IMG/VR virus record: IMGVR_UViG_3300029787_004840
Span: 1-45,697 of that record
Length of the DNA: 45,697 bases
Direction: 5' to 3' (one strand)
DNA from: a virus
Made by a program: the position numbers and the translations under genes. Position 1 is the first letter of the stretch, and the number at the start of each line of letters is the position of its first letter. The notes beneath the pieces were generated by a model. The model was given only the letters and a program-made list of their open reading frames with translations. It was not told the origin of the DNA and did no database searches. Of the stretch, positions 18,572-43,886 are shown piece by piece.

Positions 18572-18886
18572 ATGGAATTAATTGAAAATAAAACTAATAG
18601 CAGTAGGACAAGATATTCGTATGGGTACACCGTGTTAGAACATCGTGGTAAAAGAACAACTACTTCTGTCGGATCAAACTTTGATCAATATTTGCCTGTA
18701 ATGTATCAAGCATCCAATAAAGAAGGGAGAATACCCCCAGAATGTGGAAATCGTCCTGATGCTATTGCTGACATTTTTTACGATTCACCTGGGTATTGGT
18801 GGTATGTGATGCAATACAACGGAATATCAGACCCTTTCGAGCAACTTAATCGTGGAGACAGAATACTAATACCTGAACTGCGATGA
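18572..18886 (+). CDS. Baseplate wedge protein gp53-like (LysM-like)
   Basis: This 104-aa protein is typical of the short gp53/LysM-like baseplate proteins that clamp the wedges or hub. It contains PPECGNRPDAIADIFY (55-70), WWYVMQYNGISDPFEQL (76-92) and the ending RGDRILIPELR (94-104). Together these match the pattern RPDxIAxxxYxxPxxWWxIMxxNxIxDPFxxLxxGxxLxIP. A good ribosome site AGAGGA (18558-18563) lies 8 nt before the ATG. It is translationally coupled to the following 1078-aa gene by an ATGA overlap. T4 gp53 is 196 aa, so this is a minimal version. Confidence 0.82.
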   Translation: MELIENKTNSSRTRYSYGYTVLEHRGKRTTTSVGSNFDQYLPVMYQASNKEGRIPPECGNRPDAIADIFYDSPGYWWYVMQYNGISDPFEQLNRGDRILIPELR

Positions 18887-26145: not shown

Positions 26146-26606
26146 CGCAATCATCTACAGTTTATGGAGCCACGCCTCTAGAGGCAACAAAAAACGATAT
26201 TATCAGCTACAAAGAGTCTGATGATATTTTTGGTGTCAGATACCCACTGTACATTGAAAATCAAACCTCGAAAGGAATATTTAAGAAAACCAAAGGTTTT
26301 GAACTGCTAAAAAGCCAGTTGAGGCAATTCATCCGTACCGAGCGCGGCGAGCGAGTAATGCTACCTAACTTTGGATTATCTTTGCAAAAGTATCTATTTG
26401 AGCCTTTAACTGCTGACCTTGTATTAAATATTCGAAAAGAAATTATTTACGGTATTACTTCCTATATTCCTGAAGCTAGTATAATAAGCTTAGATGTAGT
26501 TCCAGGCGGAAATGTTCAAGCCTACGGTTTACCAGGAATTACAATTTCATTGGTTGTCACTTCTACAAATACAAATCAGCAAACAGATTTACAAATAGCA
26601 CTATGA
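26142..26606 (+). CDS. Baseplate wedge protein gp25-like
   Basis: This 154-aa protein is the GPW/gp25 family wedge subunit that starts sheath assembly from the baseplate. The family core is LLKSQLRQFIRTERGERVML (55-74) followed by PNFGLSLQKYLFEP (75-88) and a C-terminal strand. The ERGER-x-x-x-P-x-F-G pattern is highly diagnostic. It overlaps the preceding and following genes by ATGA. The length is near that of T4 gp25 (132 aa). Some family members have been called lysozyme-like, but no hydrolase function is needed here. Confidence 0.93.
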   Translation: MTQSSTVYGATPLEATKNDIISYKESDDIFGVRYPLYIENQTSKGIFKKTKGFELLKSQLRQFIRTERGERVMLPNFGLSLQKYLFEPLTADLVLNIRKEIIYGITSYIPEASIISLDVVPGGNVQAYGLPGITISLVVTSTNTNQQTDLQIAL

Positions 26607-28210
26607 GCGTTAGAAATTATAATTTACCAGATAGCATACCTTTTACAACCGCAGAGTCGGACTTTCAAAAATTATTACAAAGCGGTGAAAAGTTTAAAAA
26701 TAAAAAAGATCTTATTGATTACGCTGGAACTGACTTTGGTGATTTACGACAAAATCTAATAACCTATCTCCAGGCTGTATACCCAGAGGACTATCAGAAT
26801 ATTTCTGAGTCGGATTTTGGCATAATGTTTACGGAACTTGTTTCTTATATGGGAGCAGTTTTATCTTTCAAAGCTGACGCTCTTGCTAATGAGAATTTTT
26901 TATCTACTGCAAAAAATAGAAATAACGTAAAAAAGCTGCTAGAGCTAATAGGTATTCGCATGAAGGGTCCAACTTCTGCAGGTGGAAATGCAAGAGTAGT
27001 CCTACTTTCACCCGCTGGAAGTAATCCTGTTATTACTGCACAAAATAGAGTTGTAACATTAACGTCACCACAAGATGGAGGGCAAGTAACCTATACGTTG
27101 TATCCTGTTGAGAGTGGAAAGATTTCAGCATTAGCAACAAATACAACTGATATCACTTTAGCTTTAAGTGATTCGGAAAGTGGCGCAAACGCTAGTTGGA
27201 CGAATTTAGCTTTAGTGGAAGGCTCCTTAGTTGATGAAACTGGTTCCTTTGATTCCACTGAGGTATTTAAAAAGATTACATTAACACAAGGGCCTGTTAT
27301 TGAGAATAGTGTTCAAGTATTTGTTACAGCAGAAGATGCAGCCTCAGGGGTATACACCCAAGTTGATAATATTTTTTCATCTTCGGGGGCTACGGATAGA
27401 ATATTTGATACTGTTTACGATGATGAGTATAATGCTACTTTACGGTTTGGTGATGGTGCAGTAGGAGCATCTCCCCCAAACTCTTCTACGTATAGAGTAG
27501 TTTATAGGATTGGAGGAGGGACAAGAGGTAATTTAATAGGCGCTACTATTGCATCACCAATAACAACCTCTGTAGGCCCAGGAACCCTATCAAATACCTC
27601 TGTTATAACAGGTGGAATTGATGCGGAAACAGTGGAGAATGTAAAACGAAATGGGCCTTTAGTATTTAAACAACAAGATCGTCTTGTTACTTTAGGTGAT
27701 TACTCTTCACATGTATCTCGCTATGTCAGCCCTACAGGTGGAGCTTCAATAGGAACCGCTTCGACTAGAAAGGCGTACTCGTCTGCAAATATTATTGATG
27801 TTTATGTTCTTCAAAAAGCGACAGCAACACAGCTACAAAGAGCAACAGTAGATTATAAATCAAATCTTCTTAACTCTATTGAGCAAAAAAAGATGTTAAC
27901 TGATGAAGTTGTTGTTGCAGACGGATTAATAAGAACTCTTGATTTAAGTTTAACACTGTACGTTGATTCGGCCCTAAAGGACAGCGAGGATATAATAAAA
28001 CAAAAAGCAGCAAGTGTAGTTACTTCCTTTTTTACTTACGATAAATTTGGATTTGGTGAGACATTTATTCCACAGGAATTGAATAGAAAATTATTTGATT
28101 TGAATGAAGTAAGGTACTCTACGGTAGATAATTTTACAAAGAACGTAACTGTATCTTTCAATGAAGTGATACAACTAAATAATGCTACAATAAATGTAGC
28201 GTATATCTAA
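26603..28210 (+). CDS. Baseplate wedge protein gp6-like (gpJ family)
   Basis: The 535-aa protein matches T4 gp6 / P2 gpJ, the wedge protein that forms the inner ring of the baseplate and transmits conformational change. The N-terminal region FGDLRQNLITYLQAVYPEDY, SESDFGIMFTELVSYMGAVL and ANENFLSTAKNRNNVKKLLELIG is the family signature. A beta-rich middle follows (TYTLYPVESGKIS, RFGDGAVGASPPNSSTYRVV) and the C-terminal NRKLFDLNEVRYSTVDNF completes the pattern. T4 gp6 is 660 aa. It is coupled to gp25 by ATGA and to the next gene by TAATG. Confidence 0.9.
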   Translation: MSVRNYNLPDSIPFTTAESDFQKLLQSGEKFKNKKDLIDYAGTDFGDLRQNLITYLQAVYPEDYQNISESDFGIMFTELVSYMGAVLSFKADALANENFLSTAKNRNNVKKLLELIGIRMKGPTSAGGNARVVLLSPAGSNPVITAQNRVVTLTSPQDGGQVTYTLYPVESGKISALATNTTDITLALSDSESGANASWTNLALVEGSLVDETGSFDSTEVFKKITLTQGPVIENSVQVFVTAEDAASGVYTQVDNIFSSSGATDRIFDTVYDDEYNATLRFGDGAVGASPPNSSTYRVVYRIGGGTRGNLIGATIASPITTSVGPGTLSNTSVITGGIDAETVENVKRNGPLVFKQQDRLVTLGDYSSHVSRYVSPTGGASIGTASTRKAYSSANIIDVYVLQKATATQLQRATVDYKSNLLNSIEQKKMLTDEVVVADGLIRTLDLSLTLYVDSALKDSEDIIKQKAASVVTSFFTYDKFGFGETFIPQELNRKLFDLNEVRYSTVDNFTKNVTVSFNEVIQLNNATINVAYI

Positions 28211-31200
28211 TGGCAAAAAAATATTCAAAAATTAATTTTGTTGATGCAGTAAAGATTATCACTCCTAATGTATATCTAAATGATGATATCGAGGTTAGTG
28301 GGTATAGTGTAAAGGTAACTGACACTGTAATCAACAGCCACTTAGCGTCGATGGCAAAAATAACAGAGACCCTAAATGTCAGTGCTTTGTCTGCTGACCC
28401 AAATCTAAGCGCCATAAATACAGCCGCTGGGTTTGGGCAGTTCTTTGTTAAGCAAAACGATCTTACTAAAGTTACTCCCTATTCATTTGATATAAATATA
28501 TTGCGACCCCTAGGGTACTCATATGGAGATTATTCAACTTCAAGTGCCTTCTTTAATTTTCTTAGCGGTACATTACTTCCAAAATTAACTTTAAACTCAG
28601 AGTCCCTTCATACGGATACGTCTAATGTTTTTGCTAATACAGCATCAGGAACTCACAAGTATTTAATTTCCAATTTAAGTTGGCTATATTTTTTAAATAC
28701 AAGTGGTGTAGTAAGTGCTCCTTCAAGCATTGTCGCCAGTTCTATAACGAGCACTTTTTATGAAGGAAAGTCTTATTTAATTAATGATGGAATAAAAGAT
28801 TATCAAAAATATCTTTGGGATAATTATTCAAGTTTTAGTTCTATTGATTCTCAAATTATCCCTGCTGCATTTCTTTCAGGTGCAGGGAGCTATACAAGTG
28901 GTAATCAAAATCTAAGTAAGTTGCAGACATTTGCGGATGTTATTTATTCTCCTCTTTATATTGATCGGGAAGACACTACGGTTAAATCTGCAATTGAAGC
29001 CTATGTTGGCGCAGGAGCAGGCACGTTGCAGACTACGGAAGCTGCAGGTCCATTCCATAAGTTTATAAAGGCTGTATCTTATCTACTTAGAGATATTGAT
29101 AACGAAGTTGAATCTTTAGAGCGCCTAACTTCTATTACTGATTGTCCTTCTGAGTATCTCCCATATCTTGCTAATCTTTTAGGTTGGACTTTATATGGAA
29201 ACAATGAAACTTCTTGGAGGAATCAGGTAGCTAATGCTACTAGCTTATATCGCAAAAAAGGAACTAAGCAAGGGCTTGTTGATGCAATGAACTCTGTTTT
29301 AGTAGAGAATCCTATTGACGTTAGCAGCACTGTTATTGAAATGTATGAGTCTTACATACCTAGGCTTATGTACTATTTATTATTAACAGAATCAAAGGAC
29401 TTATTCAATTTAAAAACCTATTCTGCTGCAGAGGCTGATTCTTATGGGATAAACCCAGAAAGTTTTAGTCCAACAGATGCAGATCAAAATATTAGAGCAG
29501 CAGTGGACTCGATTATGCAGAATGCAGTATCTAAATACCCACATCTATTCTTTATAAAAAATGAACCTTATAGAGTTAACATTTTAGAAGATGGTACTGG
29601 GTGGCTAGGTCCTACTGTAGAAGATGGAGGTAATTATTACACAGGAGAATTCTTTGGTCCAACGTCTAGACGTATTGCGCTTCTGGGTGATCCCAACTTT
29701 AAATTTAAGTATCGAAACTCAGAAATGCCTATACCCCCTTGGGATGATGAGAAGTTTTATAGAAACTGTATGATAACTCAGAATCTCATCTCTTTTTTCA
29801 AAAGTGAGTTATCTAGATTCTGTATTAACTCTCAAATTATAGATAGTTTTGGTGATTTTATTAGTAAATACACCACGCAACCTATAGACAATACAGACCT
29901 CTATCTTGGCAATGGTTACGTATTCTTTACATCTTCTTTAGAGACTCCTCCAAATTATGAAGAACAGTTAGATCAACATGATGTTACTAATTATAATTAT
30001 TTTGGACTTTGGAGTGGTAAGTCTTCAACTTATGATTTCACTGTTTGCGCTGGCACTTTCTCTAGTATTCTCTTTCAGGACTCCTCTGGATTATATACAA
30101 AAAATGAAATCCTCGACTCCCTAGCAATTGTTGACGAGTTTAGTCCTGCAAAATCTATACCTAGAACAAGGGTTGTTTTATCACAAAATGAATACGCAAG
30201 TGGTTTAGATTACATATGCCCTTCTGTAAGATACAAAATATTAGATGTCCCTACTTGCTCTGGTGCTATGTCCAACTATGAAGTTTGTGGAATTTATGAT
30301 AGAGGGACAGGGTATGCACTCGGACGGCAAAAACACCCTGGTTTTGATGATTCAAGAAGCAACTTTCCACATAATAATGTTCCTGTTTTTACTAGATCTC
30401 AGGCACTGTTTTCAAATAATATTACCAACTCTGTAGTGAATACAAGCCAGACTGTCCCAGCCACCAGTGCGGTCCCCCGTAGGTCTGTGAGAAGGCGAAA
30501 TTTTTATAATACATTAGACGAGAAACATTGGTTTGGTCGAGATGGTTATAACATGCCTTCTTTTTACAATAATACTAGTTCTATTTTAGACTTCCTGCCT
30601 TTAGGGATAATACCTTCTTCAATGAGTTTCGCAAATGCAAGCCCTGAAAATTTATCAGGAGTATACGAAAGTGATTGTGCAACGACAGACTCTAACAGAA
30701 GTTATTTTGGTTTAGATGTAAAAGACGCTTACCTCACTAGAAGTTACGGGAGCCCTACTTTCTCTTCTTGTGATCAATTTGTTAGGAGAGGATTACTTTC
30801 TGATGAGATATACACATTCTTTAACTTTCACGAAAAAAAGAAGAAGGCCATCGCTGAAGAAATACTGAATTTAAATAAAAACCAATTAATTACTTCCTCT
30901 ACGTGGATGAACGTTGTTGATTCTTTTGCAAATAGAATGAACGATGTAGGATATGATAAATATATTTCACCTGCCCTGGATAAGCGCCGCGTTTCTACGG
31001 GGGAAAATCGAGGAGTCCAAGAAATTTATAATACTTATAATAAATTCTTCCTAACTTCCTTGGCAGGAAGTGCGCTTCCCCAATCTCTGCTGGATTCCGT
31101 TGTTGATGGGGGTTCTAATATCTTATCACACACATATGGCCCTCTGTATTTTAATGCTAGTTTTAACTTAGATGGAGATACCGTTAAAAACAATGTAGCT

Positions 31201-34200
31201 ATTCCTAATGGGACAGGAGAAAACATTATTAATGGCAGTCTATCCAATCCTTACATATTTGATCTTACTTCTTCGGGTACTAATTTCACAGGAGCAGGAG
31301 TAATCGAAGAAACACTTTCGGGGTCTCCTTACTACGGTGGGTCTGAATATATTGCTAATAACTTTTTAAGCGGTCTCTCCTTTATAGATACTAGAAACGC
31401 TGATGCTATTACCAGTAGAAATAAGTTTGCTATTTATGATTTAGAATCTACAGAGGAAACAAAGCTTGCTTCTTTTGATAATTATTTTATAAATAATAGA
31501 ATGATTTATTTACAGACAGGAGGCTATGGGCTACCCCGAGTTAGATTTAATCTTAGTGGGACAACAGAGCAAGAAAATAATATTTTGATTCCAGAACACG
31601 ACTTCCAATTAAAAATAGATTACTCGTCTGGAAAACTGGGTAGCGCGGAGCTTGGTGGAGGATCCCTAGGGGTATTAATCAGAACAAAAACAGAAACAAC
31701 AGAGGATGGAAAAGCGGTAGTATTTTTCTGGACTCCAAAACAAGAGTGGGAGATGGCTTATGTATCTGATCTTGCTAGTAGCTCTACTGGAATCCAAACA
31801 ATTTTAGATCAGTATACCCATAAGTTCACAGACACTTCATCAACTGTAGCTACTCTTGATGCACAGTGTGGAGAATCTGTTGACCTGGGTAATAATAGTG
31901 TTATTAGGTACATAAGCACAAAAGATATAAGCACAGCTACAGTAGATTTCCACACTAAAAATCAATTAACAGAGGTTCCTTTTTCCTATGGGACGTATTA
32001 TAAAGCTAATAACTCTGAAGTTTATAACGGTAGGAATGTTCAATTACACAGGGCTGATATTTCAGACTTAACAAAATCTCAGGGTTATGTTGTAGAAGCT
32101 TTCCAACTACCTAAGATAAATCAGCAAGAAGAGTTTATTATATTAGATAAATTAAGCGTAGTAGATAAGTCTTTAAACAGCTATGCGGCTATTCCTTATG
32201 ATTCTTCAATACCAGACATAACAAAACAAGACACATCGATCCCTGGGGATAATACGTATAATTTATTATTATCCAATGGGGACTCTTTAAAGGACATCGC
32301 ATTTACTTCATTATTCTCACAAGGGGCTACTGAGGATACTACGAGTACCCAAAATACTCAGGACTTATGGGTTAACCAACAAGAGAGTATTGTGGGTTCT
32401 TGGGGTGGGTGGGTTGTTGGGTATCATGGTGGCTGGAATCCCAGCCAACTCAATAGCAGATTGTGGTCAGTTGTAGGACAACCCTTTGGGCGCTATTATC
32501 TTGACGATTTCTCCTTAACGAACTATCAATCCTCAGTGAACGGTTTTTTATGGACAGCAGGCGCAGCGCCTATTCAATTTTCTCATTTACAGACTGGTTT
32601 TATTGGCGATAAACCTTGGGGAAAGATTCCTTTTTGTTCTCCTTGTAATTCAACCTGGACCGCGCAAGCTGTGGGTATTTGTGGCGATACAACTACAGGC
32701 ACACCACAGCAAGATGAAATTACAAGAATAGCCGCCGATTATTTTGTTGCGCGGAAAGGCTTTCTTTCGGTTAATGAGTGGTCCCCATTTATAAATATAG
32801 GGATGAGGCAAAGTTTTGCCAACGAATCGACCTTGTATCCACATATCCAGCCTGGAGTAGGTATACATGTTTGGCCTGGGTCTCATAAAGATTCAACGAA
32901 AGCTGTTCATTCACCATTAATTGGCCTAGCCCGAGCAGGACATGCTAGTGACGAGCAATGGGTTGAAGGCCAAGAGCAATCAAATGGGTTTATTAATAAT
33001 GGGACAGGAGAAAGGAACCCCTTAGGATTTAGAAAAGATGTAGACAAGTTTGATTATTCAACTATAGAAAGAAATCTAGGAACTAATACTTTTGGGACCT
33101 ATGTAAATAGTCATGTATCATGTGGCTCTCCCTTAATGATAGATTTTACTTCCAATAGAGTTACTCCTCTGTCTGAATCTGTTGCTCATACTCCCGAGTT
33201 AGCGTATAATTTCTTATCTGAACCCGCTTCTTGGGAATACAGAACTAGTGAACCTCATGATTATCATTTGCCAACTATTTTAGATCCTTTGGGGCAAGTA
33301 ACCTCTTCTTTAGCTGCACATTCATTGATGCCCATCCAGGTAAAGAGAACTCCTCAAGCTAACCAGGGCGCTAATAGTCCCTTTAATCCGTTTGATAATG
33401 ATGTATCCAGGAAGTATAATAAAACGGTACTAGAATCTTTCTGGGATACTAGCGAAGAGGGTGGTCACGGTATTACTTTTCCACCAATGTCAATTTATAG
33501 AGATACACTAAGAAGCCAGTTAACCCATGGTACAGAGTACTCATTTACTGTCTACGTTCGTGGAAGTGGGACTGAAGACACTAGGAAAGCTAATACTTAT
33601 GCAACTTCGGCAATCGTAACTATTGCTCCAATAGGTTCTAAAACCAGCTATTCTAGAGTAAGGATAAAACTACCAGCGTTTAATAGCGGTGAGACACCTA
33701 CTGTCGAAAAGCTAAAAGGAGGAACTGCTGCTGGATTGACAAACAATCAAGCAACATTTATAACACAGCATCAGGTTATGCTAGATGAAGATCCTGATGT
33801 TTTGGTTAATTGGTATCAAATTCGTGTTACCCTTCCTTATGATGCTTTTGAAGAAGACTTATCAGGCGAGATTAATTTAGGACTTAGATGTACAATACAA
33901 GCGTACAATGATAAATTTGACGGTCTAATTATGGGTGGTGAGACTCCCAATTTTCAAACTGAAGCAGACGCAACAAGGTATACTACAATACCTGCCAAGC
34001 TTTGGGTATGGGGCTCGTCATTAGTGGAAGGCCCTAGAGATGGAGAACAAGTAGGAACTCCTACTCGAAAAACTGTGAGCCTGAGACAAATAGGTAAGAG
34101 GTGTGTTTCACCAGCAGTAAATGCACTAGAACTCCTTCAAGATTTTCTGAATAATTACCAACAAAAATATGGGATTTGGAACCAATCAAATAATAGTATT

Positions 34201-34857
34201 TTTGATGCGGGAGTGTATGGGGTAAACGTAGATGCTATAACCTATGATATGGCTTCTAACGTGACTACCACCGAGGAAGGTCAGGATGAGCTACAAATTT
34301 TTGCAGATAAGAGAATTTTACAAAATGATTCTGGTGCTTTGAAAATATATAATGCACAAACCTCTTCCCTTGTTCCCTTAACTCTTCAAGAGAAAAATGT
34401 AGGTGCTGTAGGAGGATTCCCTTCAAGGCTGTACAAAGGTGTTTCCTTGTATGATAATAGTGGAGCAAAATATAGTGGTAACATTACTTACTCATTAACT
34501 AGAAAATTATTAAGAGACGCTACTTTCCCTACTGAAGGAGAAGAACTTAGAGAGTTATCGGTATCAGGAGATTCAGAAGGAACTGCACTATATAAAGTTG
34601 TTACTGGAAGTATACCTATACAGCCTATAGAATTAGTGAGATTATTTAGGTTTTTTAATAAACTAGGAAAAACTACAGGAAATCCCAGAAGCATATCTAA
34701 GGGAGGCTTTAATACTAGGGTTGCAGCAGACTCTTCAGGAGTGCATGATTTAAGTGGGGGAAGTAGAGTCTCTTACCGATCAAATCCAGATAATACGAAT
34801 ATTGGAACCAAAGATGGAACCTATTCTAATTACACAAACATAGATATAATAAATTAG
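28210..34857 (+). CDS. Giant gpI/gp7-like baseplate protein with carbohydrate-binding-like domain
   Basis: The 2215-aa protein is the largest in the window and follows gp6, as gp7 does in T4 (1032 aa). Residues about 295-365 resemble P2 gpI/tail_P2_I (ITDCPSEYLPYLANLLGWTL, RKKGTKQGLVDAMN), the wedge fold of gp7-type proteins. The following 1000 residues are beta-rich with many Asn/Ser/Tyr. Residues about 1755-1940 look like a beta-sandwich carbohydrate-binding module of the kind common in phage tails (YSFTVYVRGSGTED, then WYQIRVTLP, closing WVWGSSLVEG). The next gene carries a similar module. No stop or frameshift interrupts it. A wedge arm that reaches out to the cell surface is a plausible reading. 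Confidence 0.72.
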   Translation: MAKKYSKINFVDAVKIITPNVYLNDDIEVSGYSVKVTDTVINSHLASMAKITETLNVSALSADPNLSAINTAAGFGQFFVKQNDLTKVTPYSFDINILRPLGYSYGDYSTSSAFFNFLSGTLLPKLTLNSESLHTDTSNVFANTASGTHKYLISNLSWLYFLNTSGVVSAPSSIVASSITSTFYEGKSYLINDGIKDYQKYLWDNYSSFSSIDSQIIPAAFLSGAGSYTSGNQNLSKLQTFADVIYSPLYIDREDTTVKSAIEAYVGAGAGTLQTTEAAGPFHKFIKAVSYLLRDIDNEVESLERLTSITDCPSEYLPYLANLLGWTLYGNNETSWRNQVANATSLYRKKGTKQGLVDAMNSVLVENPIDVSSTVIEMYESYIPRLMYYLLLTESKDLFNLKTYSAAEADSYGINPESFSPTDADQNIRAAVDSIMQNAVSKYPHLFFIKNEPYRVNILEDGTGWLGPTVEDGGNYYTGEFFGPTSRRIALLGDPNFKFKYRNSEMPIPPWDDEKFYRNCMITQNLISFFKSELSRFCINSQIIDSFGDFISKYTTQPIDNTDLYLGNGYVFFTSSLETPPNYEEQLDQHDVTNYNYFGLWSGKSSTYDFTVCAGTFSSILFQDSSGLYTKNEILDSLAIVDEFSPAKSIPRTRVVLSQNEYASGLDYICPSVRYKILDVPTCSGAMSNYEVCGIYDRGTGYALGRQKHPGFDDSRSNFPHNNVPVFTRSQALFSNNITNSVVNTSQTVPATSAVPRRSVRRRNFYNTLDEKHWFGRDGYNMPSFYNNTSSILDFLPLGIIPSSMSFANASPENLSGVYESDCATTDSNRSYFGLDVKDAYLTRSYGSPTFSSCDQFVRRGLLSDEIYTFFNFHEKKKKAIAEEILNLNKNQLITSSTWMNVVDSFANRMNDVGYDKYISPALDKRRVSTGENRGVQEIYNTYNKFFLTSLAGSALPQSLLDSVVDGGSNILSHTYGPLYFNASFNLDGDTVKNNVAIPNGTGENIINGSLSNPYIFDLTSSGTNFTGAGVIEETLSGSPYYGGSEYIANNFLSGLSFIDTRNADAITSRNKFAIYDLESTEETKLASFDNYFINNRMIYLQTGGYGLPRVRFNLSGTTEQENNILIPEHDFQLKIDYSSGKLGSAELGGGSLGVLIRTKTETTEDGKAVVFFWTPKQEWEMAYVSDLASSSTGIQTILDQYTHKFTDTSSTVATLDAQCGESVDLGNNSVIRYISTKDISTATVDFHTKNQLTEVPFSYGTYYKANNSEVYNGRNVQLHRADISDLTKSQGYVVEAFQLPKINQQEEFIILDKLSVVDKSLNSYAAIPYDSSIPDITKQDTSIPGDNTYNLLLSNGDSLKDIAFTSLFSQGATEDTTSTQNTQDLWVNQQESIVGSWGGWVVGYHGGWNPSQLNSRLWSVVGQPFGRYYLDDFSLTNYQSSVNGFLWTAGAAPIQFSHLQTGFIGDKPWGKIPFCSPCNSTWTAQAVGICGDTTTGTPQQDEITRIAADYFVARKGFLSVNEWSPFINIGMRQSFANESTLYPHIQPGVGIHVWPGSHKDSTKAVHSPLIGLARAGHASDEQWVEGQEQSNGFINNGTGERNPLGFRKDVDKFDYSTIERNLGTNTFGTYVNSHVSCGSPLMIDFTSNRVTPLSESVAHTPELAYNFLSEPASWEYRTSEPHDYHLPTILDPLGQVTSSLAAHSLMPIQVKRTPQANQGANSPFNPFDNDVSRKYNKTVLESFWDTSEEGGHGITFPPMSIYRDTLRSQLTHGTEYSFTVYVRGSGTEDTRKANTYATSAIVTIAPIGSKTSYSRVRIKLPAFNSGETPTVEKLKGGTAAGLTNNQATFITQHQVMLDEDPDVLVNWYQIRVTLPYDAFEEDLSGEINLGLRCTIQAYNDKFDGLIMGGETPNFQTEADATRYTTIPAKLWVWGSSLVEGPRDGEQVGTPTRKTVSLRQIGKRCVSPAVNALELLQDFLNNYQQKYGIWNQSNNSIFDAGVYGVNVDAITYDMASNVTTTEEGQDELQIFADKRILQNDSGALKIYNAQTSSLVPLTLQEKNVGAVGGFPSRLYKGVSLYDNSGAKYSGNITYSLTRKLLRDATFPTEGEELRELSVSGDSEGTALYKVVTGSIPIQPIELVRLFRFFNKLGKTTGNPRSISKGGFNTRVAADSSGVHDLSGGSRVSYRSNPDNTNIGTKDGTYSNYTNIDIIN

Positions 34858-36669
34858 ATGTTAGGCACAGTAGAAATATATAAAGATTTTAATAGTAAAA
34901 CACAAGAGCGGGTGTTTCATCAGTCTAATTTAATTGTTAATGGAGGCGCAGAAACCATATGCTCATTGCTTACTACACCCTCTGGGATTGTAGCAGGGGC
35001 AGCAGGAAGCACAGATAGCTCTAATTTTACTATACAAGCATTATCTTTAGGAAAAAGCTCAGAAGCTTATAGAGCTAATGGACATTATTTTCCATTCTCT
35101 GAGAAGTCTTATTTTGCTATAAACGACATGTATACTACTTATGTAAACTCGGTAAGCAGCGATGGTATTATTCGGGCCGTTTCTGAAAATAATGAAAACA
35201 TAGCATTTTCCACTAGTTCCTATGATCCAAAGAGAGATCCAGGAGTCTGGCCTAACCCAAATGATAGGCAATTAGAAAAATTCACAGATACGGCTATTGA
35301 TCAAGTTAAGGGTCAGTACTATTATGCTGGAGGGGATGTTCTCCAGGGAAGGGCTCCCTCTTATGGGCATAATTTAAACAGGATTGTCTCTAATACAAAT
35401 CCTAATCTTTTATCTTATACAGAGCCCATAACACAAGATTCTGCGGGGGTATACTGGACTGTTGTTAATATAGGCGCATCTTCTTTATCAGGACTCAACA
35501 CTGGTCCTGAGTATGGAACACAGGCACTACTTTTAAGTTCAACACATAACGCTGTAGGTAGACTCACACAAAATGTTCCTTTATCAAAAACTTGTTTTCA
35601 TCACAATGTAGATCATACTTATAGCGTTTATGTTCAACTTCCACAAAAAAATGCTACATCGTCAATAACATTAAATATTAGAGATACAACAGCCCCAAAT
35701 GTTGGGCACTCTGCAAAATTTATCACTTATGATGAGTCAGTATCTTCCTATATTTCCCCTGTAGTGTCCTCCTTAGCTAATGGTGCTTTGGCAAAGGTAT
35801 CTCCAGTGGTGGATAAAACGGGTACTCCTGGTTGGTACAGACTGCAAGTTAGGCTTCAAGGATTAGGCGACACTGCTTTTGTTGGCACTAAAATGGGAGA
35901 CCAAGTAGAGGCTCGCCTTACTTTTACTGCACCTGGAAATAAACCTACCACGGGGGGCGAATTACATATTTGGGGTACTCAATTAGAAGAAAGTTTTGGC
36001 GCTTCTAGATACCAGCCCGTGTCGGGGATTGAGAGATCATTTAAGACTGGTGGTGTTGCGGGGGATACTTTTCTAGGTTGTTATCCTCATACCAGCGGGA
36101 CTTCTTTTGCAATTTTATCAGACATAAAGTATTTACAAAATTCGACCAGTAATGTTTTAACAAGTGGAACTTTTCCTGATACTACAGACCGCACTTATTT
36201 TAACTCTTCGTCTGTAAGATCAATGGATCAGAATGGATTTATAAAGGCGTACTTTCCATCCGCAACAAAAGGGGGAGAGCAAGCTTGGCCTTACGATATT
36301 ACCGATCCTGGATCTGGTCTTATTGTTTCTGCTGATGTTAATTTTTCCTCCACAGGAGAAGTTTCTTGTATAACAACGATTGCCTCTGCGGATCTAGGAC
36401 TAGCAAACATGTTTGGTGGTTTGTTTAAACTTGGGCTATGGACAATTGATTTACCCAAAACTTTGGCTGATACTGACGATTTAGGTAATTCAAAAATTGC
36501 GCCTTCGTTCCCTTTGACCTTTAATGCTGGCTATAATAAACTAGTATATAAGCTATTTGCCGAAAAAAGCTTAACAAAAAATATGGCAGCAGTTAATGAC
36601 GATGGTTCCAATGCGGGGTGGTTGAAATATTCAGATTTGACATTAGTTTGGAGGCTTAATTTTATATGA
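34858..36669 (+). CDS. Tail fibre-like protein: adapter plus carbohydrate-binding-like domain
   Basis: It starts directly after the previous TAG. Residues 1 to about 75 (LGTVEIYKDFNSKTQERVFH, QSNLIVNGGAETICSLL) share the pattern G-x-V-E-I-x-K-x(n)-N-x-[IV]-x-x-G with the next two plus-strand proteins. Residues about 250-385 match the beta-sandwich glycan-binding domain often seen in phage tail proteins (TYSVYVQLPQK, GWYRLQVRLQG, HIWGTQLEESFGASRYQPVS). The C-terminal 150 residues end in YSDLTLVWRLNFI, like the W-x-L-x-F ends of the paralogous adapter modules. So the glycan-binding domain seems inserted between the two ends of the adapter fold. It is coupled to the sulfatase gene by ATGA. Receptor binding is inferred. 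Confidence 0.68.
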   Translation: MLGTVEIYKDFNSKTQERVFHQSNLIVNGGAETICSLLTTPSGIVAGAAGSTDSSNFTIQALSLGKSSEAYRANGHYFPFSEKSYFAINDMYTTYVNSVSSDGIIRAVSENNENIAFSTSSYDPKRDPGVWPNPNDRQLEKFTDTAIDQVKGQYYYAGGDVLQGRAPSYGHNLNRIVSNTNPNLLSYTEPITQDSAGVYWTVVNIGASSLSGLNTGPEYGTQALLLSSTHNAVGRLTQNVPLSKTCFHHNVDHTYSVYVQLPQKNATSSITLNIRDTTAPNVGHSAKFITYDESVSSYISPVVSSLANGALAKVSPVVDKTGTPGWYRLQVRLQGLGDTAFVGTKMGDQVEARLTFTAPGNKPTTGGELHIWGTQLEESFGASRYQPVSGIERSFKTGGVAGDTFLGCYPHTSGTSFAILSDIKYLQNSTSNVLTSGTFPDTTDRTYFNSSSVRSMDQNGFIKAYFPSATKGGEQAWPYDITDPGSGLIVSADVNFSSTGEVSCITTIASADLGLANMFGGLFKLGLWTIDLPKTLADTDDLGNSKIAPSFPLTFNAGYNKLVYKLFAEKSLTKNMAAVNDDGSNAGWLKYSDLTLVWRLNFI

Positions 36670-39600
36670 AAGGTTCAGTAGAAATTACAAAAGTTTATTC
36701 CGATGGTCGCAAAGAGCTTGTTTGTAGAGACAATAATGTATTAACTACAGGGTTAGGTGTTTCACTTGTTGATTTATTTACGGAAACAGGAAGCACTGAT
36801 ATTAAAGATAAAATCGCTGGATATTTTCAAATTGGCGTAGGTAAACATCAACCAGAAAATCAGTCTGATTCAGCATCTAAGTATATAAGCAGTTTAGCCT
36901 CTCCTCTAACAACTTCGGAAGAGTATGGCGTAGATGCCTCTCTTGATGTTAATATTCACAATCTGGTGACCCTTCACCCTACCGTGTTTAATGGAGCTAT
37001 TCAGCAGGGAACGCAAGAGGCTGTTTTTGTTAAGTTAGAGAATAGTGATTCTGTTAATAATATTAATGGTGTAGTGAGCTATAAGCTTGTTTTAACCGAA
37101 GAGATGGCTAATGATCTTAATGGTGAGATAACTGAGTTTGGATTATTTACTAGAAATACTACTGAGGCTGCTTTCTCTTCCAAACAAAGACCTCAAGACC
37201 ACAAGTCTGTTTTGTTGGCATACAAAAATTTAGAGGGGGTAGCAGGGTCGGGGATCGAAAAAAATTCAGATTACTCTTTAGTTGTTGATTGGCAATTAAA
37301 ATTTGTTGATGATTCTGCTGTTGCTGAGGTTCGACCTGCCGCGCCAGGGAGACCTAATGTCGTATTTATTATGATTGACGATGTTGGAGTCGATCAATTA
37401 GGGATGTATGATTCTTTAAATCCCTATAAATTAGGGGAGAATGGAACTCATGCGAACGCAGTACCATTTAGTCAGCTAGACGATCCAACGAATGGGAGTG
37501 GCATTTATCCACATACGCCAACTTTGAGTGCTTTGGCAGACGCAGGGATGACCTTTTTTAATACGCGATCTCAACCTGCGTGTACTCCAACTAGGGGTAC
37601 TTTCCTGACAGGAAAGTATAACTTTAGCTGTCAGAATTTTCAGCCTCTCGAAACGGGTGGCTTCATCCCAAACACTGGTTTTTGGGGGCCTGGATTGGGG
37701 ATTGTTCCTGATGCAAATTGGTTGAGGAGAAGCCGAGGAGGTTTAAGAGGTCTTAATGATCCATACAGGATTATTAATCAACAAGGGTATAAACAATCTC
37801 TCCAAAATGGTATTACAGACGGGAATGGTAACCCTAATTTTATCCCTCAAAATGCGGTATTTGCAGATTACATGAAGAAAGATGACGTAGGATATAATTC
37901 ATCTTTGTTTGGGAAATGGCATTTAGCAGCGTGGTCTGATCAACAAGTTTATTGCGAGGAGGGTATTGATGATACCCAACAACAAAATATTAAGGGCAGA
38001 GGATGGTCACACATTGGTATAAAAGGGAAGTGGGATCACTATGTTGCAACGTTCAGTAATTTAAATGTGCCTCCTATCCCAGGATACAATGCAGTTACTA
38101 ACGTCTGGGAAAACGCATCCCAGTGGCCTAACAAAGGCGGAAGCACTACTGACTCCACTGATGGGAAGCAGATGGGTTTTGTTAACTTTTTTGCGAACTA
38201 TAACGGGGATATTCTAACAGTATCAGATACAGGGTATAGGACATATAAAGAGGTTGGGCCTAGTGTTCCCTATGAGCAAGGGGATGCTAGTTCTTTTGCT
38301 ACTAACTTTATCCTATCGGCGGCAAGCAGCCACTTTAATACCGCAACAGAGCCCTTCTTTATGTACATAAGTCCGAATATGCCTCATACTCCGTATACCT
38401 ACCCCCCTTCATCAAATGTATATAATTCATATTATAATCAAAATGATAGGTATTCTGTTCTCCAACGAGGAACAGATGCAAATACAAGCACTTCTGCGAC
38501 TTGGATTGCTACAAATGCAATGATTGAGAATTTTGATAAAACGTTATCGGGATTTTTAGCAAATTTAGATCAGAGTAGGAGGGATAATACTGTATTTATC
38601 TTTACTTCTGATAACGGAGGAGTTCTTACTGACCAAAGAAAGAGAGCCGTTTTCGCATCATCCTTGGGGTTGGGGGCAGGAACAAGCCTTGGTGGTGATT
38701 ATAACGGGTCTGGGGGTTTTGGATCAACATATGATAAAATGCTTAACTTAGGCGCTTACTGTTCATCATTAACTCCATCAGCCGTTAGGAGAGGTGGTGA
38801 GAATGATTCCGCTAATCAGTTTAAGGCTTCGTTGTATGATCGAGGGGTTTTAGTTCCTATGATTGTTAGTGGTCCTGGCATCAGTGCAGGAGTTCAAACA
38901 AGTGCTTTAGTAGATTTAACAGACATGTTAGCTACTGTAGTAGACTTCGCAGGTGGAGATTTTAATAGCTTTCCTGCTGTTCCAACTGATTCAGTATCTT
39001 TCAAAGATGTTTTACTTGGAGTAACAAACTCGTCTAGTCATGGAAGACAGTTTTCCTTTTCTGAGGTATTTTTTCCGAATGGAAATAGCATAGGAACTGT
39101 ATCTGATTCTGGAACATATACTGGTTATGCAGGATGCCCAAACCCTATTGCTATTAATTCGGTTGAGGGTGTTGAAGATCCTAATCCTTTTTTCCCTAGA
39201 AGAGTACGAAGAGGGTTGAGTGTCAGATTTTCTCCCTCTCAGTTTATTGGCTTTAATCCACCCAAGCTTGGCGCAGTAATTGAGGACTTAATAACAGAAG
39301 GGGTAATTGATGCAGGCGATGTAACGGCTGTATATGATGAAATTCCTGATGCTAGTGCTGGGTTATGGAAAATAATAAGGCCTGGGTCTGGTCGTGTTAA
39401 TTTTGGCGCAGATTTTCCGCATGACACCCAAGAATCTACGGCTACTCCGAATTTCCCTCACACATTAGGGTTGGGAAGACTATATGAGGAATTATACCAT
39501 TTACAAAAGTTAGATTTTGATGCAGTTGACCCTTATGAACTAAAGGATTTTATTGATGAGGAGACTAAAGGAATAAAAAACGGATACTGTGCGAGTGCGT

Positions 39601-39827
39601 TATTTGTATCTGCAATTGTTAACTCTACTGGAAATGGTGGCATAAATAAGTCGGGACAACTAAATAATACAGTACATTATTATAATGTAGGCCGTATCTA
39701 TGAGGCTATTAGATTAGCGTTAGGGAGTTTCTTACAGTATAGATACACTCCTACCCAAACTATGAACCTTTTGGGTGGTCAGGATATGTGGGACCCAGAG
39801 GACGAGAACAATGAGGCGATACAATAA
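36666..39827 (+). CDS. Tail adapter fused to type I sulfatase
   Basis: Residues 1 to about 215 are the virion adapter module (KGSVEITKVYSDGRKELVCR to YSLVVDWQLKF). Residues about 228-990 form a complete alkaline-phosphatase-superfamily sulfatase: PNVVFIMIDDVG (D238, D239), CTPTRGTFLTGKY with CxPxR (C306, R310), FGKWHLA (K417, H419), NMPHTPY (H574), FTSDNGG (D649, N650), FKASLYDRGVLVPMIVSGPG (K720), and the C-terminal EELYHLQ...DPYELKDF. C306 must become formylglycine to work, and no maturase gene is seen here, so the host would need to supply it. It should remove sulfate esters from a surface or environmental polysaccharide during adsorption. No signal peptide is present, as expected for virion assembly. 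The exact substrate is unknown. Confidence 0.9.
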   Translation: MKGSVEITKVYSDGRKELVCRDNNVLTTGLGVSLVDLFTETGSTDIKDKIAGYFQIGVGKHQPENQSDSASKYISSLASPLTTSEEYGVDASLDVNIHNLVTLHPTVFNGAIQQGTQEAVFVKLENSDSVNNINGVVSYKLVLTEEMANDLNGEITEFGLFTRNTTEAAFSSKQRPQDHKSVLLAYKNLEGVAGSGIEKNSDYSLVVDWQLKFVDDSAVAEVRPAAPGRPNVVFIMIDDVGVDQLGMYDSLNPYKLGENGTHANAVPFSQLDDPTNGSGIYPHTPTLSALADAGMTFFNTRSQPACTPTRGTFLTGKYNFSCQNFQPLETGGFIPNTGFWGPGLGIVPDANWLRRSRGGLRGLNDPYRIINQQGYKQSLQNGITDGNGNPNFIPQNAVFADYMKKDDVGYNSSLFGKWHLAAWSDQQVYCEEGIDDTQQQNIKGRGWSHIGIKGKWDHYVATFSNLNVPPIPGYNAVTNVWENASQWPNKGGSTTDSTDGKQMGFVNFFANYNGDILTVSDTGYRTYKEVGPSVPYEQGDASSFATNFILSAASSHFNTATEPFFMYISPNMPHTPYTYPPSSNVYNSYYNQNDRYSVLQRGTDANTSTSATWIATNAMIENFDKTLSGFLANLDQSRRDNTVFIFTSDNGGVLTDQRKRAVFASSLGLGAGTSLGGDYNGSGGFGSTYDKMLNLGAYCSSLTPSAVRRGGENDSANQFKASLYDRGVLVPMIVSGPGISAGVQTSALVDLTDMLATVVDFAGGDFNSFPAVPTDSVSFKDVLLGVTNSSSHGRQFSFSEVFFPNGNSIGTVSDSGTYTGYAGCPNPIAINSVEGVEDPNPFFPRRVRRGLSVRFSPSQFIGFNPPKLGAVIEDLITEGVIDAGDVTAVYDEIPDASAGLWKIIRPGSGRVNFGADFPHDTQESTATPNFPHTLGLGRLYEELYHLQKLDFDAVDPYELKDFIDEETKGIKNGYCASALFVSAIVNSTGNGGINKSGQLNNTVHYYNVGRIYEAIRLALGSFLQYRYTPTQTMNLLGGQDMWDPEDENNEAIQ

Positions 39828-40403
39828 ATGGACAAGTTTAAACCAAGAGGATTTTTAGAAGTTATTAAAGTATACGAAGATGGATCAGAAGAAGTTCATT
39901 TTTCAGAAAATAATGTTATTACTTCAGGAATGGGAGTAGGGTTGTCTCATTTATTCTCTGGATCAGGTGCTGACACAGTATCTGATTTTCAAGTATTAAA
40001 TTTTCAGGTGGGCACGGGAGGAGATATTACGGACTATGGTGTTTCTTCTCATAAAATAAATACTCCTTTAACAGAGGCTCAGTACATTTCCACAGGGAGC
40101 GAGACTCTTATTGAAGCCCTTAAACCGATTCAAAACGGCACCGTTAAGGCTTCCACTGAAAGTATGGTTAGATTGCCTTTTTCAAATATACAAAAAGTAA
40201 CCCCTACTTCGGTGCGCTTTAATTTACTTTTAGATAGGTATACAGCCAACCAAGAAACTGAATTAGATGAAGTAGGATTGTTCATGAGAAACCCGAGAGG
40301 ACTAAATACTCCTAGTCCCATACTGGTTGCATATAGACCCTTTAGCGGGATAAGAAAGACCAGCACCTTTTCATTACTATTTAAGTGGACTCTCCATTTT
40401 TAA
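39828..40403 (+). CDS. Stand-alone tail adapter protein (paralogue)
   Basis: The 191-aa protein aligns over its full length with the first 215 residues of the sulfatase gene: GFLEVIKVYEDGSEEVHFSE (8-27) with NNVITSGMGVGLSHLF, NFQVGTGG, a central LPFSN/LLLDRYTANQETELDEVGLF, and the end STFSLLFKWTLHF. It lacks any catalytic or glycan-binding extension. It could cap or pair with the larger paralogues in a mixed trimer, or be an empty docking socket. It starts right after the sulfatase stop and ends 3 nt before the beta-helix gene. A fibre-attachment role is inferred. Confidence 0.7.
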   Translation: MDKFKPRGFLEVIKVYEDGSEEVHFSENNVITSGMGVGLSHLFSGSGADTVSDFQVLNFQVGTGGDITDYGVSSHKINTPLTEAQYISTGSETLIEALKPIQNGTVKASTESMVRLPFSNIQKVTPTSVRFNLLLDRYTANQETELDEVGLFMRNPRGLNTPSPILVAYRPFSGIRKTSTFSLLFKWTLHF

Positions 40404-40406
40404 ACT

Positions 40407-43400
40407 ATGCCTTTTAATCCAACAGATCTGTATTCCACAAGCGCAGGAACCCAAATATATAACTACTTTAATCCTTTTGTAACAAAGTTTGATAGTCAGT
40501 CTTTTTATAATTATGAGCAAGATAATCAACCTTTATTCGATTTGGAAGAAAGAACCTTGGGGCTTTGGGAAAAGTCTACTGGCTACTTTACATCCTCTTT
40601 AAACGGGATGCCTCTAGTAGTTTCAGGCAGTTTAGATAGCACGAATAGAAATGTATTCACCGATCTTCAGACAGCAATCGACTCTCTACCTAATATAATT
40701 AGAACCCCTACTTTAATTGAAGTTGCAGCCTCTGGATACTTGGGTGGGTTAGAATTAAAAAACATAAAAATAGTAGAGAATGGTGTTTTAGAGATTGTTA
40801 ACCGTGGGTTTGCAAAAATTTATACAGGATTTGGTAATGGAGCAACATCTTCTTTAGGTAAGTGTACTTCAACAGACTTACAAAAAAGGTCCTACCTTAA
40901 TACTATTTTATCTCCTGATCTTAGCAGCACGATTTCTGCAACCTCTGCTCTTTCCGTAGCGACTAATGTTGCCAATTTATTTACCTCTAGGTTTAATAGA
41001 ACTTTTGTACAAGAAGCAAATTTTACGACTACTAAAGAAAGAAACGCTAGAGTCTCCTTAAACTTTATGGATGTTGACAATTCAATAGCAACTTCTTTTA
41101 TTGATACTGGAGACAATCTATTTAACTTCGCAAATTATGAGATGGGCGAAGCAGGGAATATTATAGACCTAACACCTTCCTCTCTTGATATATCAGCCGT
41201 AGCGGGAGATACTGGAGCATTGCTTCAAAGAAATACGACAACTTCTGTTCCTGACGGTCGCCAAGTTGGAGGGTTAACTTATTGCAATGCGTTATCTTCT
41301 TTAACTATTGATAACTGCGCTGGTCCATTATATATTAGAGGATTTTGTATTGATGGAGTAAGTGGCGCAGGTACAGCATATTTAAGTAGTCCATATAAAA
41401 ATAGTGTTGGTATAAAAGTGTTTAACTCTAGTCCTGTGATAGAGAATTGTGCGACAATGCGAAATACAACAACGGGAGCTAAATTTGTTAATTCCGAAGT
41501 TACCTTAAGTCGTGGCTTTTTTGCAGATAGAAATTATTTAGTAGAGAATCCAGGGACCACTAGATCAACGGACACTACGGTTGGGCTTCATGCTATTAAT
41601 AGTAAAGTAAATTTATATGGTGATCCTTTCTACGCCTCAGGTAGTGATTACTTATTTAATACACAGAATCATACTATTGGGGCACTCCTAGAGAATAGTA
41701 CTTTAACAGGTGGGCAAAGCAAGCCTACCAACTCTGAAAATGATTCTTCCATAGGATTTTCTTACAATGAAGTAGGTATTAAAGCTTTAAATTCTAATAT
41801 TATAGTTAGCGGTAATTTAGATATTTATAATAACGACACAGGTGCCCTTTTACAAGACTCTCACGTATCAACAGATAGGCTGACTGTAGAAAACCATACA
41901 GGTGAAGGAATTGTCGCAGAAAACTCTACTATTCTTTACAATAATAGTTTAGCTAGACGCGACTATGTGTCTGATCTTAATGGGTATAGAATGACTCAAA
42001 CGTTATTTCATAGGAACGGATCGCACATTAATTTAAAACAAGGAAGTAATCTATCATACTTTAGCAATGCTTCCGCTACTGTAGATATCCCAACAAGATT
42101 TGGCGGACTAAGATTTGCTGGATCTCATGGGGTAGGAGACGATGGCTCTTTACCTTGCATTAACCTAGAGCAATCAAAAGCAAATCTTATTCACTCACGA
42201 ATAGTTGTTAGCTCCTTAGATAAGACGGCTCCTGGGATTGCGGGAGCGGCGATAAAAGCCTCTGATAACTCCTATGTTAAAGCATTAGGGACAGTTAATG
42301 GAGCTACGATTATTCAAGGTCCTGCTACTTATTTAGGCGGTGAGCAGGTTGCGGGAGTGGCTGCATTAAATGGATCAAAAGTAAGCTTTAGAGGTCCTAC
42401 CGCTATTGTTCAGTTTGGGGTTGATGCTTTGGCTGACGCAAATTCAACGTTAGAATTTGTTCCACATCAAGAAGATGATGGAACTTTAGCCTTGAGTAGC
42501 TTTAGTTTAGCTACGATTGGTAATCATACTTCCGTTGAATTACATTCGACAAAAACATGCCTAGCAGCTACGGATAACTCTAAAATTATTATGCAAGACT
42601 TAGGGAGTGCCAGAGGTCTTTACGCTTCGGGGCTTGATAATGATTATTCAGATGCGGATGTTGCTAGATTTGTTAGCGCAGGGTCCATGCAGTTTTACCC
42701 TAATGCAAACAATCCAGATACCACTACCACCCACTCTAATTTAGGTTTGGCAGACGCATCATTGGCGAACGACAAAATGACCACTGCCAATTTTACGACT
42801 ACAGGAGTAGTTAGAGTTGATTATAATTATTTAATTACTAACCCCTTTGCAGCAAATGCCTCTGCTACAATGAGAAATTCTATAACAAACGGCGGATTAT
42901 GTGTGCAAGCTTTCGGAAACAGTGTTGTCAATGCAAATAATATTCATTTTCCTACAGGGTATGTTCAAGCAGAAGCAACTTTCTTTGATCCTAGCGCGAC
43001 AGTAGCGGGATGCAATCAGTTAAAGATTTGGAATATCGGAGATACTTCTAAGCTTTATGCATCTCACTTAGCTGTTAGTGGAGAAGACCCAAACAAGACA
43101 AGCTACCATGGGCCAAGAGCGGCATTTTTAAGTGGTGTTTCAAATGAATTCGGAACAGGGAGCATAGGGGTTGATTCAATTCATGTTGCTTATGGAGCCG
43201 CTTCTGGAACACCGAACACGGGTCGATTGAGTGTTTGTGATCTATTCGGTCTTGGGGTAGACTTGGCTTCTTCTGGAGACTCCACGATAATCGACGCTGA
43301 GGTATCGGCACTTAATCTCGCAATAACGGGTAATAATAATAGGTTAGGTCAACTTGATTCTCAAAACAAAGGGCCTTTTAGGGTTTACTTTGGGACTAAC

Positions 43401-43886
43401 CCTGCACTTCGTTTTATTGGATATCCTTCTGCAACTCTTGGTCATCGAGGGGATCATTCAAAGTTTGCGACCGAAGATACCCGCCCATTGCAGCATATTG
43501 CTCAAGGGTATAGTCTATCCTCTGGGGCTGGGGTCTTCTTAGAAGCTTTAAATGCTAGTGCATCCCACAATATCCTTATTAAAACTAAGGGCTATAATGG
43601 GTTTACCCCTCATATTGTAGCAGATTCTTCAGGGTATTACTACCCCTCTGATATGGCAGAGTCAGATAGAGGCACTAATGTCTTCTTAGATGAATCAGCA
43701 GCCAACACTTTTGCAAATGCAAAGAATGCAGCTTATCGCCCCTTATCAGGAAGAGCAAATCCTAAAGTAAGTATTTACCGATCCACAACAGGAGCAGGAG
43801 GGATAGGCAGTAATGGCTTAGGGGTAAGCGCCTTAGGCGTAGGATTAAAATCAATTAATATCTTTGATATTAGGAGGAATATATAA
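40407..43886 (+). CDS. Beta-helix tail spike-like protein (1159 aa)
   Basis: The N-terminus has FYNYEQDNQPLFDLEERTLG, a pattern shared with the next protein, and likely docks on the virion. Residues about 90-850 contain recurrent short rungs of the type G-[LIA]-x-x-x-NS-x-[VIL] (GAKFVNSEVTLS, GLHAINSKVNLY, GALLENSTLTGG, GIKALNSNIIVS, GIVAENSTILYN), as in right-handed parallel beta-helix spikes. Their pitch and Asn/Ser at turns fit this fold. C-terminal residues about 1000-1159 are Gly/Ser-rich. Such proteins often degrade or bind surface polysaccharide, but no catalytic site can be picked by eye. It may act together with the sulfatase. SD AGGAGG at 43872-43877 serves the next gene. Confidence 0.77.
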   Translation: MPFNPTDLYSTSAGTQIYNYFNPFVTKFDSQSFYNYEQDNQPLFDLEERTLGLWEKSTGYFTSSLNGMPLVVSGSLDSTNRNVFTDLQTAIDSLPNIIRTPTLIEVAASGYLGGLELKNIKIVENGVLEIVNRGFAKIYTGFGNGATSSLGKCTSTDLQKRSYLNTILSPDLSSTISATSALSVATNVANLFTSRFNRTFVQEANFTTTKERNARVSLNFMDVDNSIATSFIDTGDNLFNFANYEMGEAGNIIDLTPSSLDISAVAGDTGALLQRNTTTSVPDGRQVGGLTYCNALSSLTIDNCAGPLYIRGFCIDGVSGAGTAYLSSPYKNSVGIKVFNSSPVIENCATMRNTTTGAKFVNSEVTLSRGFFADRNYLVENPGTTRSTDTTVGLHAINSKVNLYGDPFYASGSDYLFNTQNHTIGALLENSTLTGGQSKPTNSENDSSIGFSYNEVGIKALNSNIIVSGNLDIYNNDTGALLQDSHVSTDRLTVENHTGEGIVAENSTILYNNSLARRDYVSDLNGYRMTQTLFHRNGSHINLKQGSNLSYFSNASATVDIPTRFGGLRFAGSHGVGDDGSLPCINLEQSKANLIHSRIVVSSLDKTAPGIAGAAIKASDNSYVKALGTVNGATIIQGPATYLGGEQVAGVAALNGSKVSFRGPTAIVQFGVDALADANSTLEFVPHQEDDGTLALSSFSLATIGNHTSVELHSTKTCLAATDNSKIIMQDLGSARGLYASGLDNDYSDADVARFVSAGSMQFYPNANNPDTTTTHSNLGLADASLANDKMTTANFTTTGVVRVDYNYLITNPFAANASATMRNSITNGGLCVQAFGNSVVNANNIHFPTGYVQAEATFFDPSATVAGCNQLKIWNIGDTSKLYASHLAVSGEDPNKTSYHGPRAAFLSGVSNEFGTGSIGVDSIHVAYGAASGTPNTGRLSVCDLFGLGVDLASSGDSTIIDAEVSALNLAITGNNNRLGQLDSQNKGPFRVYFGTNPALRFIGYPSATLGHRGDHSKFATEDTRPLQHIAQGYSLSSGAGVFLEALNASASHNILIKTKGYNGFTPHIVADSSGYYYPSDMAESDRGTNVFLDESAANTFANAKNAAYRPLSGRANPKVSIYRSTTGAGGIGSNGLGVSALGVGLKSINIFDIRRNI

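Follow-up and report, generated by a model that had tools for sequence, protein, structure and literature searches.

Organization of the tail locus

The window, meaning the whole 45,697-nucleotide stretch of viral DNA analyzed here (IMG/VR record IMGVR_UViG_3300029787_004840), encodes a series of baseplate and tail proteins followed by a protein in which an N-terminal tail adapter is joined to a formylglycine-type sulfatase (Table 1). An ORF check found the reading frame of this fusion uninterrupted.

Table 1. Features of the tail locus, in window coordinates
Feature	Coordinates	Strand	Basis or remark
gp53-like baseplate wedge	18572..18886	+	PHROG 7145, 6.7e-08; PHROG 232, 4.9e-06; gp53 by position and by eye
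gp25-like baseplate wedge	26142..26606	+	PF04965, 4.8e-08
gp6/J-like baseplate wedge	26603..28210	+	PHROG 219, 6.2e-36
2215-aa tail protein	28210..34857	+	Phage-tail domain TIGR02242, E 4.9e-11, below family cut-off
603-aa protein, conserved ends, variable middle	34858..36669	+	Homologues of 364-1525 aa
Complete fusion gene, N-terminal tail adapter and formylglycine-type sulfatase, 1053 aa	36666..39827	+	Supported by homologues
Adapter domain, residues 1-215	36666..37310	+	PHROG 5417-like; paralogous to downstream gene
Sulfatase catalytic domain, about residues 228-963	37347..39554	+	Pfam, PDB matches, sequence
Metal ligands D238-D239	37377..37382	+	Residue check and alignment
CTPTR, residues 306-310, formylglycine maturation motif	37581..37595	+	C306, R310
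K417-W-H419 of GKWHL	37914..37922	+	Residue check and alignment
H574	38385..38387	+	Residue check and alignment
Metal ligands D649-N650	38610..38615	+	Residue check and alignment
K720	38823..38825	+	Residue check and alignment
191-aa stand-alone adapter paralogue	39828..40403	+	Present in 12/12 relatives in adapter tree
1159-aa protein, repetitive, fibre-like by eye	40407..43886	+	Conserved beside adapters

The window also encodes a gp17-like terminase, with a best identity to isolated phages of about 36%. Synteny extends over the whole window in a 75-kb sister contig (G011, locus L015), whose terminase is 81% and sulfatase 49.5% identical; this sister also encodes a gp18 sheath, a gp21 protease, and a gp23 capsid protein. 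By these T4-like markers, the source contig is a fragment of an uncultured T4-like myovirus. The fusion gene lies downstream of the gp53-, gp25-, and gp6/J-like baseplate genes, and its position in the baseplate cluster is fixed, also in the sister; a location within the tail/baseplate cluster is what a virion-associated glycan-active enzyme would have. Searches bearing on the host returned no adapter-pattern homologue in GTDB genome contigs and, in a weak test on the phyla to which Rhodopirellula and Pedosphaera belong (392 and 388 genomes), no closely related terminase. No tRNAs were found in the window or the 75-kb sister.

Two other genes of this phage group deserve mention. The product of positions 770 to 1459 on the minus strand, which adjoins the terminase gene on the opposite strand, is 68% identical to a sister protein matching Glyco_tranf_2_5 (PF13712). 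The homologue of the 603-aa protein in L032 (L032:1163-5740) matches the head-spike fibre domain NF048003, and the 603-aa protein and its homologues, including L030:2968-6405, possibly mark a second cargo site.

Catalytic site and predicted fold of the sulfatase domain

A first-pass annotation, made from sequence alone, had described a full-length sulfatase with an intact active site, and independent searches bore this out. The protein matched the Pfam sulfatase family PF00884 in two stretches (103 bits against a curated cut-off of 25 bits; E = 2.4e-29), and phmmer matched 21 distinct PDB sulfatase sequences, the top one being the k-carrageenan sulfatase S1_16. PHROG 19870, annotated as "unknown function," was also matched. 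All ten catalytic residues named in advance (D238, D239, C306, R310, K417, H419, H574, D649, N650, and K720) were found at their claimed positions, and by visual inspection the domain ends in ELYHL..DPYEL, a motif resembling that of sulfatases. With the family profile, the CxPxR motif, the metal ligands, the catalytic Lys, His, and Arg residues, and an alkaline-phosphatase-like sulfatase fold, the product is on its sequence a formylglycine-type family S1 sulfatase, predicted to be catalytically active.

Structure prediction also recovered the expected sulfatase fold. An AlphaFold2 run on a 4-sequence alignment reached a pLDDT of only 26.8; a usable model came from 79 sequences (11 phage sulfatases, 6 sulfatase-less adapter proteins, and 62 cellular sulfatases), with a mean pLDDT of 68.5 and a pTM of 0.71. 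In this model 238 residues, mainly in the conserved core, had a pLDDT of at least 90, and 286 fell below 50; within the adapter domain, values were 85 to 92 for residues 1 to 20, 83 to 86 for residues 141 to 160, and about 32 to 60 for residues 61 to 140. The top PDB matches found by Foldseek were sulfatases (S1_19 carrageenan sulfatase, arylsulfatase A, and gut sulfatases), with E values down to 2e-16. TM scores by target length were 0.48 to 0.60, modest values probably due to long, poorly modeled family-specific inserts. Against BFVD, the long matches were giant-virus sulfatases, and a second set spanning about 210 to 240 columns comprised small phage proteins, archaeal-virus proteins, and annotated tail fibres; because this length fits the adapter, we take the second set to represent that domain.

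A probable tail adapter with exchangeable cargo

The N-terminal 215 or so residues of the fusion are 33% identical (4.3e-15) to the product of the gene immediately downstream (39846-40403), and both match PHROG 5417. The function of this family is undescribed in PHROGs, where it is annotated as "unknown function"; in the present fusion, the adapter bears an enzyme. The adapter match, the paralogue, and the position inside the baseplate/fibre cluster agree with the earlier view that a tail-type module is fused to the sulfatase.

Comparison of related contigs, retrieved via neighboring genes, revealed that the content of this locus varies. The adapter stands alone at the fusion's locus in L022, L023, L025, L032, and its near-copy L033, is extended in L024 by 630 residues that match no Pfam family, and is missing along with the rest of the gene in L030, L031, L034, and L036. 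(By eye, the L024 extension, L024:3890-6454, looks Calx-beta/Ig-like.) PF00884 was absent from all six fusion-less related records searched whole, up to 111 kb, and was confined to the fusion gene in 8/8 fusion-bearing records checked. In a tree of adapters, the 191-aa paralogues formed one clade separate from the cargo-bearing line, in which L022, L024, and L025 grouped beside 11 sulfatase-bearing adapters; L026, L032, and L054 had long branches and an unsure placement. An isolated Vibrio phage encodes a homologue of the adapter in the equivalent position, directly after weak gp25- and gp6-like matches. Because related loci hold the adapter alone or with a different extension, the sulfatase behaves as a swappable module on an existing tail protein. 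Paralogous adapters, exchange at the locus, and tail-fibre fold matches together mark residues 1 to 215 as a probable attachment domain.

These data bear on whether the enzyme might instead be soluble, produced in the infected cell and set free on lysis to loosen the matrix or supply nutrients, outside the virion. Soluble phage sulfatases do seem to exist, since free-standing sulfatases with signal-like N termini lie beside phage genes on L138 and L139. The fusion differs in that no member has a signal peptide, the N terminus being the adapter; this adapter is common to neighboring genes within the baseplate cluster and stands alone in sister phages, all of which makes a soluble enzyme unlikely. 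Free-standing sulfatase genes were seen on viral contigs L138, L139, L141, L143, L150, and L155, and that of L139 adjoins a terminase gene. These proteins, including the PHROG 19870 member on L138, resemble the fusion in placing a sulfatase beside phage genes but are separate proteins with a secretion-like N terminus and no tail adapter, and they seem to represent a second type of phage sulfatase, distinct from the first.

Active-site residues are invariant across a phage family

The search for the same architecture in other phages, proposed with the first-pass annotation, succeeded: 13 further IMG/VR contigs encode an adapter-sulfatase fusion, 12 found in the first two scans and one more (L054) in a third. 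All are metagenomic contigs representing partial genomes, and four end within the gene; L013 and L014 are cut inside it, and L006 and L008 lack their 3' ends yet span the catalytic residues. Since L009 and L010 are near-copies, the set used for conservation (n = 11) consisted of the window plus ten distinct contigs covering the catalytic residues.

All ten catalytic residues were invariant in 11/11 phage sequences, at pairwise identities of 36 to 87%. With 94 of 573 domain columns invariant, the hypergeometric probability that all ten sites would be invariant by chance in these 11 sequences is about 1e-8. The C.PTR motif is kept in every phage member that reaches it, as is every catalytic residue. 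Usable dS was obtained for a single pair, L003/L015, with a dN/dS of 0.20; two further pairs, near saturation, gave values of about 0.11 to 0.12. Judged from these alignments, the fusion gene is under purifying selection and keeps its active site.

Some receptor-binding proteins reuse enzyme folds, and the sulfatase domain could in principle be a noncatalytic binding module of a virion protein, as the inserts of about 300 residues in two members (L005 and L012) might also suggest. A binding role would be at odds with the invariance of ten catalytic residues, C306 included, at 36 to 87% identity, far above the average column, and we consider it very unlikely.

Several members have additional segments. 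The inserts in L005 (L005:6001-10065) and L012 (L012:8001-12167) lie in the sulfatase domain after GKWHL, and that of L005 had no NCBIfam match. In L054 (L054:2844-7370), some 500 extra residues (about 215 to 717) separate adapter and sulfatase; this insert had no significant family or PDB match and by eye resembles an alpha/beta-hydrolase (VAGNGFGSTLAGYLA), with Gly at the position of the nucleophile Ser.

Relation to other sulfatases

A scan of GTDB genomes that used the catalytic region as its query provided 80 cellular sulfatase loci, mostly from Planctomycetota and Verrucomicrobiota. Nine of the ten catalytic residues recur in 61 or more of 62 cellular sulfatases; at the remaining position, H419, most of the sampled enzymes have Q. 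The phage sulfatases formed one clade (support, 100/100), set apart from the sampled cellular enzymes by a stem of 1.93 changes per site. Because the sampling was pattern-based, it may have missed the cellular enzyme that is actually closest. The fusion shares its fold, CxPxR motif, metal ligands, and catalytic Lys and His residues with the S1 carrageenan sulfatases S1_16 (9fo1) and S1_19 (6prm). Most sampled cellular S1 sulfatases start with signal-like N termini (by eye), whereas the phage proteins lack these and have the tail adapter and family-specific inserts.

The nearest relative found outside the family is itself viral; it scored 134 bits, and the best cellular enzyme in the sample scored 64. 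This 769-aa protein (L172:723-3029, equivalent to L181:7001-9307) is encoded on a different, high-GC viral contig (3300037808_000598). Like the phage family it has no signal peptide; it differs in having about 54 residues before the sulfatase, no adapter, and no recognized tail genes adjoining.

PF00884 and CxPxR also cover phosphonate and phosphodiester hydrolases, and a weak HdlasePehA match was obtained, so a formylglycine enzyme that shares this fold but hydrolyzes phosphodiesters or phosphonates in place of sulfates has to be weighed. The top family and fold matches are to carbohydrate sulfatases, S1_16 and S1_19 among them, and K417, H419, and K720 are all retained, leaving a phospho-hydrolase only a slim chance. 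That a single metagenomic contig could be an assembly chimera or hold a misplaced bacterial gene, sulfatases being common in marine bacteria, is practically negligible given that the fusion recurs at the same place in contigs of several metagenomes, including the 75-kb syntenic sister.

Proposed maturation of the active-site cysteine

The claim that C306 needs a host FGE, restricting productive hosts to those with this enzyme, is plausible in part. FGE (PF03781) was absent from 13 phage records and anSME (TIGR03942) from 16, all of them partial genomes, which is consistent with a host limit and makes dependence on a host maturase plausible; a maturase gene of the phage may lie beyond these fragments. 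Naming FGE alone was too narrow, because the maturase could equally be of the anSME type. FGE-domain proteins were present in 12/12 tested genomes bearing cellular relatives. Prokaryotic FGE acts in the cytosol, which fits a cytosolic, nonsecreted tail protein. Tentatively, and with somewhat less than even likelihood, the virion may depend on a bacterial maturase as the sole means of installing this catalytic residue, and a host without one may yield virions with a dead enzyme, in which case the maturation state would record the last host and restrict the next infection.

Comparison with known virion glycan enzymes

The full protein had no tblastn match at 1e-5 in 50,697 phage records. A cellular sulfatase query matched 35 phage-collection records; the three inspected (UNVERIFIED Campylobacter phage A11a and two faecal scaffolds) resemble bacterial chromosome and offer no precedent. 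No tail-borne phage sulfatase was found in the open-access literature, which is weak evidence of absence. The "FGE-sulfatase" of a prophage study is a domain of a DGR target protein (PMC12724379), a different thing that was likewise set aside as a precedent. Within the phage records searched here, the sulfatase was not recognized in isolated phages.

Typical tailspike and capsule depolymerases are beta-helical lyases, hydrolases, or esterases, and described phage glycan enzymes mostly cut chains or remove acyl groups. In its presumed function, the fusion resembles these depolymerases and virion-borne deacetylases as a tail-carried enzyme acting on surface glycans. A formylglycine sulfatase would differ from typical tailspike depolymerases by stripping a substituent rather than cutting the chain. 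A classical tailspike is a trimeric beta-helix that cuts the backbone; because the catalytic domain modeled here has a sulfatase fold and no beta-helix, we do not class the protein as one. Given its presumed virion location, it would be a sulfatase variant among the known virion glycan enzymes.

Proposed role and implications

From the sequence, predicted fold, conservation, synteny, and modular cargo, all shown here, we infer virion assembly, maturation, activity, and substrate. The protein is probably a virion-borne, catalytically active formylglycine sulfatase whose targets would be sulfated glycans on the host or in its surroundings; the first-pass annotation proposed sulfated capsule or slime as the substrate. 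Residues 1 to 215 would attach it to the baseplate/fibre apparatus beside the stand-alone paralogue, with residues 228 to about 963 kept as enzymatic S1 sulfatase cargo. Once the protein has been made in the host cytosol, its C306 would probably be converted to formylglycine by a sulfatase maturase of the host, and the protein would then be built into the tail without secretion. On meeting the host or its surrounding matrix, the enzyme would remove sulfate esters from a glycan, and this desulfation may breach the layer, uncover a receptor, or release the particle.

If correct, a tail sulfatase would add desulfation to the activities of phage glycan enzymes. Such an activity is relevant wherever polysaccharides and slimes bear sulfate, and in the sea many of them do. 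The virion would moreover contain an enzyme whose formylglycine is probably host-made, tying infectivity to a modification system of the host. The gene suggests that this phage may strip sulfate off the glycans around its host, and that sulfated glycans are a barrier or a receptor for some uncultured bacteria.
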